From an uncultured Alphaproteobacteria bacterium (GTDB lineage: Bacteria > Pseudomonadota > Alphaproteobacteria > HIMB59), in assembly GCA_902527045.1 (NCBI GenBank), contig CABZNL010000009.1, positions 1 through 53,915 of the forward strand: a stretch of DNA of 53,915 nt, written 5' to 3'. Below, piece after piece: positions 7,816 to 50,281 of the stretch. Under the pieces are notes generated by a model that was not told the DNA's origin, did not search any database, and saw only the letters and a program-made list of their open reading frames with translations. Every line of letters begins with the position of its first letter. Positions within the stretch are counted from its first letter, which is position 1. The position numbers and the translations under genes were made by a program.

Positions 7816-7960
7816 AGTTTTATCCTCCTTACTTATATATAAGTAATATTATAATATCTAAATTATCAAAAAAGTTATCAAAATTGTTCCAACATGTGGA
7901 AAAGATTTTCACATAAAAGCCTTATTTTCTGTAAATTAGTTAAGAGAAGGAATTTTTATT
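7816..7960. promoter_or_regulatory. Divergent control region between leftward and rightward transporter/carboxylase operons
   Basis: This 145-base spacer must hold both promoters. Seen directly: a 14-base perfect palindrome ACTTATATATAAGT at 7831-7844, an ATTATA at 7848-7853 (a TATAAT -10 box read leftward), two copies of TTATCAAAA near 7863 and 7875, and an interrupted palindrome TTCCA-5-TGGAA at 7887-7901. The leftward gene has AAGGAGG at about 7823-7829; the rightward gene has AGAAGGA just before its ATG. No clear -35 box is visible. The palindromes could be operators, but no regulator gene is nearby. Confidence 0.45.
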
Positions 7961-8746
7961 ATGGTTGATTTGAACTGCGATATGGGCGAAGGCTTTGGTA
8001 TTTACTCATTTGCTGATGATGAAGAAATAATGCCATTTATTGATGCTGCTAATGTGGCTTGTGGCTTTCACGCATCAGACCCAAACACAATGAGAAAAAC
8101 AGTCGAACTTGCAAAAAAATATAATGTAAAAGTTGGCTCTCACCCAGCTTACCCAGATCTTGTGGGTTTTGGTCGAAGACCAATGAAGATGAAGCGAGAG
8201 GAAATAAAAAATTTGGTTATGTATCAAACAGGTGCGATTAAAGCTTTTTTAGATGAGTTTGGTATGCCATTGAACCATATTAAACCACATGGATCGTTAT
8301 ATGGTGTCTCTGCAAAAGAAGAGGATGTGGCTCATGGAATTGCTGATGCAGCTGAAATTTTTAATGTTGGCATTTTCGGTATGGTTAATACCTTTCATGA
8401 AAAGGTGTACAAAGAAAGAGGAGTGAAATTTTATGGAGAATTTTACTCAGACTTGGAGTACGATGAAACAGGATATTTGGTTATCGCTAAGGGTCGAAAT
8501 AAATATTATCCAACTGATAGAGCTGTAGAGCGTTGCTTAAGAGCAATGAATGAAAATAAAGTTGAGACTGTTCAAGGAAATGATGTGGTTGTTGGATGTG
8601 AAACAATTTGTGTTCACTCTGATACTCCAAATGCAGTAGAAATCTTAAAAGCTCTCAGAGAAAAAATATCCTCTGAAAAAAAAATACCTCAAAAAACTTC
8701 TAATGGTACTCATACCAAAATGCCTTATATTGTTGATAAGAAATGA
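7961..8746 (+). CDS. pxpA: 5-oxoprolinase subunit A (LamB/YcsF family)
   Basis: A 261-residue protein with the full LamB/YcsF signature: DLNCDMGEGFG at the start, ANVACGFHASDP (about 31-42), VGSHPAYPDLVGFGRR (about 58-73) and KPHGSLY. PxpA is a cytoplasmic TIM-barrel-type subunit that works with PxpBC in ATP-dependent cleavage of 5-oxoproline to glutamate. The gene lies on the opposite strand from pxpBC but starts the operon that carries the biotin carboxylase, with a 4-base ATGA overlap. The C-terminal 25 residues are basic and variable. Confidence 0.92.
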   Translation: MVDLNCDMGEGFGIYSFADDEEIMPFIDAANVACGFHASDPNTMRKTVELAKKYNVKVGSHPAYPDLVGFGRRPMKMKREEIKNLVMYQTGAIKAFLDEFGMPLNHIKPHGSLYGVSAKEEDVAHGIADAAEIFNVGIFGMVNTFHEKVYKERGVKFYGEFYSDLEYDETGYLVIAKGRNKYYPTDRAVERCLRAMNENKVETVQGNDVVVGCETICVHSDTPNAVEILKALREKISSEKKIPQKTSNGTHTKMPYIVDKK

Positions 8747-47006: not shown

Positions 47007-47360
47007 TATTTTTTCTAGAATATTAATTAACTCAAATTCATCTTTATACTTATTCATTTGATCTTTATTGATTAATATTTTGTATTTACCACTATTTTCT
47101 TCAACACAAATAGGTAAGTCATGTTTATAATTTAAAAGATTATATTCTTCTAATTCTTCTAAATGTAAAAATTTAAAATTATGAGGAGAACTTTCAATAA
47201 ATTTTTTCCAAGCTTCTCTCATCTTCAAATCATGAGTAATTTTACATAAATTACACTCATAAGTGCTCGGAGAAGCATATTTATGAACTGTATCGAGAAT
47301 ATAATTCCACTTTCCACCTTTAGCGTTATAAACAAAAATTATATTTCTTTTACTATTCAT
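47001..47360 (-). CDS. Small CxxC-containing protein, unknown
   Basis: A 119-residue protein from ATG 47360, chosen because earlier codons overlap metW (stop at 47353). N-terminal IIFVYNAKGGKWNYILD, then YECNLCKITHD with a CxxC pair, and a beta-rich C-terminal half. Might be a small redox or metal-binding enzyme. Coupled to metW by the 8-base overlap. Related small CxLC proteins are known to me only as hypothetical. Confidence 0.65.
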   Translation of the reverse strand: MNSKRNIIFVYNAKGGKWNYILDTVHKYASPSTYECNLCKITHDLKMREAWKKFIESSPHNFKFLHLEELEEYNLLNYKHDLPICVEENSGKYKILINKDQMNKYKDEFELINILEKIL

Positions 47361-47946
47361 CTGTAATATGAAACAAAACCTCCTTACAAAATAGGTTTGA
47401 AGGTATTTTGCCATTTTCAAATTTTCTTAGATTAATAACGTCAAAGGTTGAAATTATTTTAAGGTCTAAATTTTTAGCTAATTTTTTAAAATCTTTAATA
47501 CTACACGGGTGAATATAATCAGTATTATACCAATGATCACTATCTTCTTTCTTTAGAAGAGAGTCAAAACTTCCTGATAATAAAAAATTTGAAATTTTGC
47601 TTAACCGTGCAGAATTATTAAAGCTAACAATAATATTCTTACTTACTTTTTTAAGAGTATTTAACAATTTATCTGGTTTTTGAACTGCCTGAATTGTTTG
47701 AGTTAAAAGACAGTAATCGAACTGATTAAATGGAAAGTCTTCCACTATTAAATTTATATCTCCATGTATAACATCTAGTCCTTTTTCTAAACATTTGATT
47801 ACTTTTTCCTGATTCAACTCAACTCCTTGAGCGCTAACACCTTTATTTTCAAGATAAGAAATTAATTCTCCATCAGAACAACCAATATCTAATACTTTGG
47901 AATTTTCCGGAATTAATTTTAAAATAATTTCATAGTCTTTTCTCAT
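47353..47946 (-). CDS. metW: Methionine biosynthesis protein MetW
   Basis: A 197-residue SAM-methyltransferase-like protein. [15 protein letters not shown] is motif I and GVELNQEKV the next conserved piece. MetW works with MetX in methionine synthesis. Its ATG overlaps the metX stop region by 4 bases, the standard metXW arrangement. The HPCSIKDF segment and C-terminal helices are typical of MetW. Confidence 0.9.
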
Positions 47947-49070
47947 TTTATTCCCTTTAAAAAACCCTGTGCAACTTTGAAAAATTGAGGCTCATCAAGT
48001 AAAAAGCTATCATGGCCTCTATCAGAGACAACCTCAGCAAAACTCACGTTTGATCCAATTGAATTCAATAGAGATACGATTTCTCTTGATTCTTTTGTTG
48101 GAAATAACCAATCACTTGTAAATGATAAAACTAGAAATCTAATCGAATTATTAATAATAGTTTTTTTATTTTCAATTATTTCATTTTTTACATCAAAATA
48201 ATCCATAGCTCTTGTCATATACAAGTAGCTGTTGGCATCAAATCGATCTACAAAAGACCTACCCTGGTAACGAAGATAACTTTCAACCTGAAAGTCTATT
48301 CCAAAGCCAAAAGATAAATCATTTTTTTCTTGTAAGTTTCTACCAAATTTGTTTTGAAAAGCTTTTTCAGATAAATATGTAATATGAGCAATCATTCTAG
48401 CAACAGAAAGACCATTTTCAGGTTTTTCATTACCCTCTAAATATCTTCCATTTTGCCAATTTGGATCTAACATAATCGATTGTCTGCCAGCTTCGTCAAA
48501 AGCTATATTTTGTGCGGAGTGTTTTAAGGAACCTGCAATGCTCATAATCGACCTAACACTCTCAGGATAAGTAGCAGCCCACTGAAGCACTTGCATCGCA
48601 CCCATTGATCCACCAGCTACAGAAAGTAATTTAGATATGCCAAGTTTGTCAATAAGAATTTTTTGTGCCTTCACCATGTCTCGAATAGTTATAGTTGGAA
48701 AATCTAAGCCATATATCTTTGAAGTTTCAGGATTTATATCATTGGGACCTGTAGTTCCTACACATCCACCAAGAACATTTGAACAGATAACAAAATATTT
48801 ATTTGTGTCTATAGGTTTATTAGGGCCAACCATTAACTCCCACCAACCTTTCTTTTTAGTAATAGGATTTTCCTCTGCTGGAAATTGGTCGCCAGTTAAT
48901 GCATGACAAACCAAAATTGCATTATTTTTTTGGTTGGTAAGTTTTCCGTATGTTTGGTATGCGATTTGAAAGTCTTTTATTTTTTTTCCAGAGTCTAGTA
49001 ATAGCTCTTCATTGCACTTAAGTAAGTATCCTGGATAATCAGTATTTGCAGTTATTTCTCTCATTTTCAA
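47943..49070 (-). CDS. metX: Homoserine O-acetyltransferase
   Basis: A 375-residue alpha/beta hydrolase-fold enzyme. [13 protein letters not shown] holds the nucleophile Ser155; an Asp is in [11 protein letters not shown] and the His in [26 protein letters not shown] is a further MetX signature. It acylates homoserine on the way to methionine. ATG codons at 49070 and 49064 are both possible; AAGG precedes them. It lies directly after a SAM-II/SAM-V-like riboswitch. Confidence 0.95.
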
Positions 49071-49097
49071 CCTTGTTCGACTGATAACTGCGGTGAT

Positions 49098-49145
49098 ACG
49101 CTTTAGCTGTTTTACACCCGCAAGCTGCTATCAAATCGGTGAAAG
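49098..49145 (-). ncRNA. SAM-II/SAM-V-type riboswitch upstream of metX
   Basis: Read on the minus strand the leader contains CACCGATTTG, then GCAGCTTGCGGGTGTAAA and AGCTAAAG. P1 can form from CACC (49141-49138) with GGTG (49118-49115); the loop AGCT can pair with the downstream AGCT for the pseudoknot, with GCTT opposing AAGC; the TAAA stretch fits the triplex. GATTT, GTAAA and GCTAAA are the shared core of SAM-II and SAM-V motifs. It probably acts on translation of metX, since the ribosome site AAGG lies about 20-25 bases after the aptamer. The exact class needs a model search. Confidence 0.75.
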
Positions 49146-49225
49146 TGAAATTTAAGGCTTTTCTAAAAATTTTCAATATAAAATGATGATATTTTCTTTA
49201 TATAGTTTATTTATTAACAAAAATA

Positions 49226-50281
49226 ATGAAAAACAACCAACCAAAAAATGCATATAAAGGCGGAGCTGAGGTATTTAAAGGCTATGTAAGGCTTTCATCA
49301 AACGAAAATAATTATGGTCCAGCAAAGTCTGTTATATCAATAATAAAACAAAATATTAAATTTTCGAATATTTATCCAGAACTTGACGGGGAGAGCTTAC
49401 GAAATCAAATTGCTAAATCCTACAAGATAAATAGCAAACAAATTATATTAGGCGCCGGTTCAGATGAAGTACTTCAAATGATATATGCAGCTTTTTCTAG
49501 ACCAAATGATGAGGTTATCTTTACTAAGTATGCTTTTGCTATGTATTCAATTTATGCAAAGAATTTTAAATGCAAAGTTAAAACATTTGATGATAAGGAC
49601 TTTCAATTTAAATTAGAAAGTCTTAACAAAATAATAAGTCAAAAAACAAAAATTATTTTTTTAGCTAACCCAAATAATCCTACTGGTTCAATTTTCTACA
49701 AAAATGAATTAATTAAATTTTTAAATAAAATCAAGAAAACAACTCTAGTTGTATTGGATGCAGCATATTGTGAATACATTAAAGATCATAAATATGATGA
49801 TGGGATGAAATTAGTTAAAAATTACTCAAATTTAATAATAACAAGATCTTTTTCTAAAATCTTTGCTCTTGGAGGTTTAAGAATAGGTTGGGGTTACGCT
49901 AACTCAAAAATTATCTCTCAATTATATCAATATAAAAAGCCATTTAATGTATCAAGACTTTCTTGTATCGCCGCTCAAGAGTCTTTAAAAAATAAAAAGT
50001 GGATTAATGAGTCAATTAAGAATAATTCTATTAACAAAACTTTAACATGTAAGCAGTTAAATAATAAATCCTTTGAAATAATTGATACTAAGGCTAATTT
50101 TATTCTTTTAAAATTTAAAAATTCAATAATAACTCAACAATTTGTGGACTTTTTACATATAAATAAAATTACGGTGAGATCTTTATCCTCATACGGTTTA
50201 AATAACTTTGTAAGAATGACCATAGGAACTAAAACTGATATGAAAAAAGCTATTTTAGTTGCAAATAAATTTAATGTTTAA
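49226..50281 (+). CDS. hisC: Histidinol-phosphate/aromatic aminotransferase
   Basis: A 351-residue fold-type I PLP enzyme. SNENNYGP (N-terminal), ANPNNPTGSIF and SFSKIFALGGLRIGWG with the Schiff-base Lys211. It transaminates histidinol phosphate or prephenate/phenylpyruvate. Because it overlaps tyrA by 8 bases an aromatic-pathway role (tyrosine synthesis) is likely, possibly serving both pathways. The name is based on family only. Confidence 0.85.
   Translation: MKNNQPKNAYKGGAEVFKGYVRLSSNENNYGPAKSVISIIKQNIKFSNIYPELDGESLRNQIAKSYKINSKQIILGAGSDEVLQMIYAAFSRPNDEVIFTKYAFAMYSIYAKNFKCKVKTFDDKDFQFKLESLNKIISQKTKIIFLANPNNPTGSIFYKNELIKFLNKIKKTTLVVLDAAYCEYIKDHKYDDGMKLVKNYSNLIITRSFSKIFALGGLRIGWGYANSKIISQLYQYKKPFNVSRLSCIAAQESLKNKKWINESIKNNSINKTLTCKQLNNKSFEIIDTKANFILLKFKNSIITQQFVDFLHINKITVRSLSSYGLNNFVRMTIGTKTDMKKAILVANKFNV

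Follow-up and report, generated by a model that had tools for sequence, protein, structure and literature searches.

The leader of metX in the analysed DNA, a stretch of 53,915 nucleotides from an uncultured HIMB59 alphaproteobacterium of small genome (the window), raises the question whether a metabolite-sensing RNA controls this gene, to which riboswitch class it belongs and how it might act. The single-cell genomes of the group are presumably marine. On the minus strand, metX (47943-49064) encodes homoserine O-acyltransferase (NF001209, 518.9 bits, cut-off 331) and its end is overlapped by a metW-like gene (47353-47946; TIGR02081, 152.5 bits, below the cut-off of 189.5). A riboswitch here would put the homoserine branch of methionine synthesis under feedback by SAM, in a lineage where standard annotation shows nothing.

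A first-pass annotation had placed a SAM-II/SAM-V-like riboswitch ahead of metXW, based on four strings in the order shared by the two aptamers. We found these strings as an exact match, since the minus strand from 49141 to 49099 reads CACC-GATTTGA-TAG-CAGCTTGC-G-GGTG-TAAAACA-GCTAAAGCG, upstream of the metX ATG (49064-49062). CACC (49138-49141) and GGTG (49115-49118) are the two strands of a P1 stem of four pairs, both near-invariant in the window's order. The GATTTGA strand (49131-49137), invariant in the 28 distinct leaders of the order, would be the third pocket strand that contacts SAM, to judge from SAM-II and SAM-V (PMC6061858; this and most papers cited below were available in part, and our statements refer to those parts). 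CAGCTTGC (49120-49127) and GCTAAAGCG (49099-49107) are the putative 5' and 3' strands of the P2 pseudoknot, a pairing that is possible by sequence and is modelled on SAM-II and SAM-V. Both strands are invariant in the order and in alignment A2 and thus offer no covariation for or against the P2 pairing. The P1-P2 linker TAAAACA (49108-49114) has 7 nt, which leaves no room for the P3 hairpin of SAM-V, and P2a has at most one or two pairs (C49127-G49099, G49128-U49098). The pocket strings GATTT, UUGC and GCUAAA follow each other in SAM-II order. A promoter-like site, TTGAAA-16-TAAATT (49149-49176), would place the transcript start near P1; we graded it as weak because 2 such sites were found compared with 1.5 in shuffles.

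The Rfam models of SAM-II and SAM-V had been proposed as the check that could refute the riboswitch, and they gave no significant match. In a permissive scan of the leader, two SAM-II models matched at the motif position, SAM_alpha (RF00521) with 12.1 bits (cut-off 36) and the long-loop model with 12.0 bits (cut-off 44); SAM-V was absent. In the window's own genome, which is 82% complete, RF00521 gave ten weak matches with the metX leader ranking fifth, and SAM-V (RF01826) gave no match at E<=10. RF00521 at E<=10 found no match in 19 of 20 relatives; the remaining one, L054, scored 23.5 of 36 bits. Over the whole window no riboswitch exceeded its Rfam cut-off, the sole passing match was a tRNA, and relaxing to E<=0.5 added RF02194 alone, below its cut-off. 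The view that the window contains no other clear metabolite-sensing RNA holds as far as Rfam shows, though Rfam misses the metX leader too. The Rfam check itself falls short, and the identification rests on models built from homologues and from SAM-II members that Rfam accepts.

A search for metX gave matches in 88 of 100 genomes, the window's own included, with 78 listed matches of at least 433 bits. Leaders were read for 70 of these 78, comprising 39/39 from the window's genus and 31/39 from a sister family, where 8 were left out. The core motif was present in all 70. They collapse to 28 distinct sequences, in which 31 of 64 columns are invariant, and P1 shows two-sided changes at its fifth pair only (9 cells, a count reached by 6 of 500 shuffles). 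A core so nearly invariant, with a stem that changes on both sides at a single pair, would also suit a conserved protein-binding or DNA site that binds no ligand as RNA. The homologues outside the order bear on this.

We searched for the core pattern GATTTGA N2-10 AGCTTGC N8-36 GCTAAAGCG, which has a single occurrence in the window's own genome and is present in 63 of 385 genomes sampled from its class. The reversed pattern, used as a control, was found in none of the matches listed, and the pattern occurs more often than expected by chance. Among named genomes it is present in at least 118 stretches; by title the matches listed are mostly proteobacterial, with a few from Bacteroidota, Acidimicrobiia, Planctomycetota, Bdellovibrio and Ignavibacteriae, the latter few being for the most part metagenome bins. 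We separated type B sites, with a P1 like that of the window (GCGCC...GGGCGC), from type A sites (CCGCGG...CCGCG) by a hand rule that looks at the letters following AGCTTGC and is not a published class division. The homologue set has 152 rows and excludes sites whose flanks run off the locus end (e.g. L136). Removing 8 rows of the window's order and merging duplicates (111 to 106) left 106 type B sequences, all from outside the order. P1 shows two-sided changes at 5/5 pairs in these sequences, with 20 two-sided cells, where shuffles gave 1.2 and slid registers no more than 5. The P1 stem that the annotation held possible is supported by its four pairs in the window and by covariation in the homologues. 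Loop and linker lengths differ across the homologue alignment while the stems are kept, and a SAM_alpha match above the cut-off lies at the motif in 8 of 19 loci scanned with Rfam. In the class search SAM_alpha exceeded its cut-off in 123 of 289 genomes, type B sites included. The covariation, the kept stems and the homologues above the cut-off all argue against a protein-binding or DNA site, which we regard as extremely improbable.

The 106 sequences were used to build a covariance model, R1. It matched the window leader with 52.0 bits (E 2.3e-13; runner-up 11.1 bits), was the only strong match in the own genome (next 14.7 bits) and matched 70/70 leaders of the order with 48-55 bits. The R1 score is inflated because the pattern that collected its training sequences came from the window's group, therefore two stricter models were built as fairer tests. 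R2 consists of 11 type B sequences, every one of them above the RF00521 cut-off (8 from the Rfam-scanned loci and 3 from the class search) and gave 40.3 bits on the window (E 6.3e-9; next 9.8 bits). R3 was built from an unbroken run of 20 entries in the RF00521 ranking, from 46.2 bits down, chosen by score with no motif filter. It gave 32.5 bits (E 2e-7, span 49082-49150; next 18.0 bits, E 0.0019), ranked the leader first in the own genome (E 4.1e-6) and matched 20/20 tested relatives with 29.6-40.9 bits. We take 49095-49145 as the extent of the aptamer matched by covariance model. From these three matches and the P1 covariation we conclude that the metX leader element is almost certainly a SAM-II aptamer. 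This bears out the proposed SAM-II/SAM-V-type riboswitch on metXW and narrows its class to SAM-II. Taken jointly with a SAM-repressed direction of metXW control, the assignment is still very likely.

The runner-up in the window (7952-8073; R1 11.1 bits, R3 18.0 bits) was taken for chance because the R1 alignment spends 54 bases on a part that is 10 long in the model, and because the match enters an ORF (7961-8746). It was not listed in the genome-wide R3 search. Elsewhere in two genomes of the genus we observed a second SAM-II-type element (L289, G029:C1:778358-778432, and L243, G004:C1:485231-485289), with 37.6 bits for RF00521, over its cut-off, and 36.8 bits for R1 (E 1.3e-7). The own genome, 82% complete, has no counterpart above 15.1 bits.

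SAM-II and SAM-V share a common pocket (PMC6061858), and in 'Ca. Pelagibacter ubique' SAM-II precedes metX, while SAM-II and SAM-V precede bhmT (PMC2704228, PMC5069961). The window element has the pocket strings and, putatively, the pseudoknot plan of SAM-V and also its short P2a (PMC6061858), which could be read as SAM-V. Against this, RF01826 has no match in the own genome, the 7-nt linker holds no P3, and no Shine-Dalgarno sequence starts at the 3' end of P2. We therefore rejected SAM-V, whose probability we consider very small, and assigned the element to SAM-II. With SAM-II (RF00521, including the metX element of 'Ca. Pelagibacter ubique') it shares the GATTT/GCTTGC/GCTAAA order, P1 with a putative H-type pseudoknot, the metX context and detection by models of Rfam-accepted members (R2, R3). 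It differs in lying far under the Rfam cut-off, in a P1 of four firm pairs, in a short linker, in a Shine-Dalgarno sequence 24 nt away and in a P2a of 1-2 pairs, while most SAM-II members have about 5 bp (PMC6061858). An extended P2a is not a strict requirement of SAM-II, since the crystallised metX SAM-II, a rare translational type, has only a 2-bp P2a (PMC6061858). The Rfam score is a detection threshold and not a structural feature, and homologues that share this form score above the RF00521 cut-off. Judged by its sequence, the element belongs to a known class and was overlooked because it falls below the Rfam threshold; family membership makes SAM its presumed ligand.

A MetX/Z/Y/H/N/E- or homocysteine-methyltransferase-like gene lies at most 1.5 kb downstream of 71 of the 111 type B sites outside the order; no such methionine gene follows 31 of them, and the other 9 have none in the less than 900 nt of sequence there. 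Nine of the downstream proteins were scanned against curated cut-offs for the methionine pathway; eight scored above one, and the MetN-like protein stayed below.

How could this aptamer control metX? We infer SAM as the ligand from family membership, presume the OFF direction, and hold SAM repression of metXW to be highly probable. The compact SAM-II fold would consist of the 4-bp P1 (CACC/GGTG) and the H-type pseudoknot P2 (CAGCTTGC with GCTAAAGCG), with the GATTTGA strand completing the SAM pocket, and SAM binding would lower the amount of MetX and MetW made. The annotation took the nearness of the ATG as a sign of translational control. That level is plausible; the search of 48950-49260 gave no terminator-like site, which makes translation the likelier level. 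The argument from distance fails, because the Shine-Dalgarno-like AAGG (49074-49071, 6 nt 5' of the ATG) lies 24 nt past GCTAAAGCG, outside the pseudoknot.

For the translational metX SAM-II from the Sargasso Sea, direct occlusion is the model (PMC10907184), in which the ribosome is kept off by the pseudoknot once SAM is bound; SAM-V likewise acts by occlusion. The leader without a terminator and a P2a of 1-2 pairs, like that of the translational metX SAM-II and SAM-V (PMC6061858), would suit such a model. It could also act at a distance through a standby site, compare S. meliloti metA (PMC9373788). The position of AAGG outside the pseudoknot makes direct occlusion unlikely, and we give it a low probability.

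The same low probability applies to control of transcription by intrinsic or Rho-dependent termination. In S. meliloti, translation of metA is under SAM-II control, while termination is the predicted mode at metZ (PMC9373788). A hairpin with a T-tract follows 83 of 111 type B sites compared with 1 of 33 type A sites, a count made with no shuffled control. Within the order, L049 and L051 out of 70 leaders have one as well, by thresholds that differ from those of the type B count. Against termination, 48950-49260 has no terminator-like site, and by the criterion applied to L049 and L051 the leaders of the window's genus have none. In these two sister-family leaders, the stretch between the aptamer and metX contains a hairpin (CCGCC...GGCGG) and then a T-run, therefore the expression platform differs inside one order.

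The reading that we prefer is a translational helix exchange at the metX start, and the chances that it is right are about even. Without SAM, a proposed anti-aptamer strand (49078-49093) would pair with the 5' half of the aptamer (49118-49138, with interior gaps) and leave the metX start usable. With SAM, the aptamer would retain its own strands and release GCAGUUAU (49091-49084), which could then pair with AUAACUGC (49055-49048) in metX to form a hairpin over the Shine-Dalgarno sequence and the AUG. The pairing of 49093-49078 with the aptamer is predicted at -19.1 kcal/mol, a value that none of 100 shuffles equalled. With the aptamer locked, the best fold contains the start-site hairpin, with GCAGTTAT (49084-49091) as its proposed 5' arm and ATAACTGC within metX (49048-49055) as its 3' arm, and it encloses the Shine-Dalgarno sequence and the AUG.

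The controls for this exchange were mixed. The duplex test, in which no more than 5 of 100 shuffles may equal the pairing, was passed by 29 of 41 distinct leaders, 21/22 in the genus and 8/19 in the sister family, and 11 of the 12 failures belong to the sister family. The opening costs separate the locked and unlocked states in two of four footprints. Among the 26 distinct genus leaders, locking raised the cost for -15..+18 in 25 (window +1.0 kcal/mol) and for -18..+25 in 24 (window +1.9 kcal/mol). The cost was higher in only 18 of 26 for -18..+12 and in only 14 of 26 for -12..+6, and here the window went in the opposite direction (-1.1 and -0.7 kcal/mol). The mean accessibility of the Shine-Dalgarno sequence and the AUG did not separate the two states. 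When aptamers were swapped, the own pairing was the best in 5 of 17 clades and at most two others were better in 11 of 17; L054 failed, with 15 of 16 better.

The locus also touches an RNA element described earlier. The 'metXZ' element of beta-proteobacteria lies ahead of metXW or metZ and was treated as distinct from SAM_alpha; in its pseudoknot regions 1 and 4 pair, as do regions 2 and 6, terminators are present, and antitermination was put forward (PMC4239095). The window element resembles it in preceding metXW and in a putative pseudoknot of matching plan, and differs from it in having no intrinsic terminator in 48950-49260. Our type B sites in beta-proteobacteria precede metX (L110, L133) and metZ (L111, L186 and, by similarity, L120). 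From the genes and the pairing plan, and not from the published consensus, we infer that the compact SAM-II subfamily and the metXZ element are the same. This link suggests SAM as the ligand of the orphan metXZ element. We found no literature on 'metXZ' as a riboswitch beyond PMC4239095, and no mention of the metX leader in the available parts of the HIMB59 riboswitch literature (PMC5069961, PMC3264578).

A second possible relative is RF02424 (Bp2_287), a Burkholderia sRNA that lies upstream of methionine genes and for which a cis-acting role was suggested (PMC3521395). In L322 it matched the plus strand at 1391-1588 with 112 bits, while R1 matched the minus strand at 1501-1561, with a MetZ-like gene downstream. 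On the window leader its match was weak (9.0 bits, plus strand). RF02424 differs from our element in being catalogued as an sRNA and in lying on the opposite strand to the SAM-II-type element. It looks like the reverse strand of the compact SAM-II subfamily and may have been modelled on the wrong strand. The SAM_alpha cut-off of Rfam appears to conceal a sizeable compact subfamily of SAM-II. It is an evenly balanced matter, in our judgement, whether there is one broad compact subfamily, often missed by Rfam, that unites the metXZ element with the reverse strand of RF02424, and in which the window's clade lost the terminator that its relatives often have and uses a distal helix exchange, with one strand pairing either the aptamer or the metX coding start.

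Further SAM-II-type variants were observed elsewhere. In a metK-linked one, GAGTTAA replaces GATTTGA and is followed by ACTTGC and GCTAAAGCGTCGC (L342-L361, at about 1496-1560, and L327, L329, L330 and L331). Of 116 genomes in the G486 family, 75 have its pattern; a metK-like gene lies downstream in 20/20 loci, and one such protein passes TIGR01034. R1 gave 33-40 bits in the three tested, and Rfam at E<=1 gave no match at the motif in 12 loci. Beta-proteobacterial metK is not under known regulators (PMC4239095). We recognised no description of the metK-linked variant in the literature, nor in the available part of PMC2864571. Since the changed base sits in the SAM-contacting strand, the ligand specificity of this variant is noteworthy.

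Six loci with Paraburkholderia titles (L149, L155, L164, L170, L188, L217) have a GGG-GCAA-CCC hairpin in the P1-P2 linker, which resembles the P3 of SAM-V; the rest of the element is of SAM-II type, and a MetZ-like gene lies downstream in 6/6. Tandem SAM-II-type aptamers, a form already known (PMC9481103), occur about 100-170 nt apart in L092, L093 and L116, and in L315 with L341 and L325 with L338. The L315 pair precedes an ATPase-like reading frame that has no profile identification.
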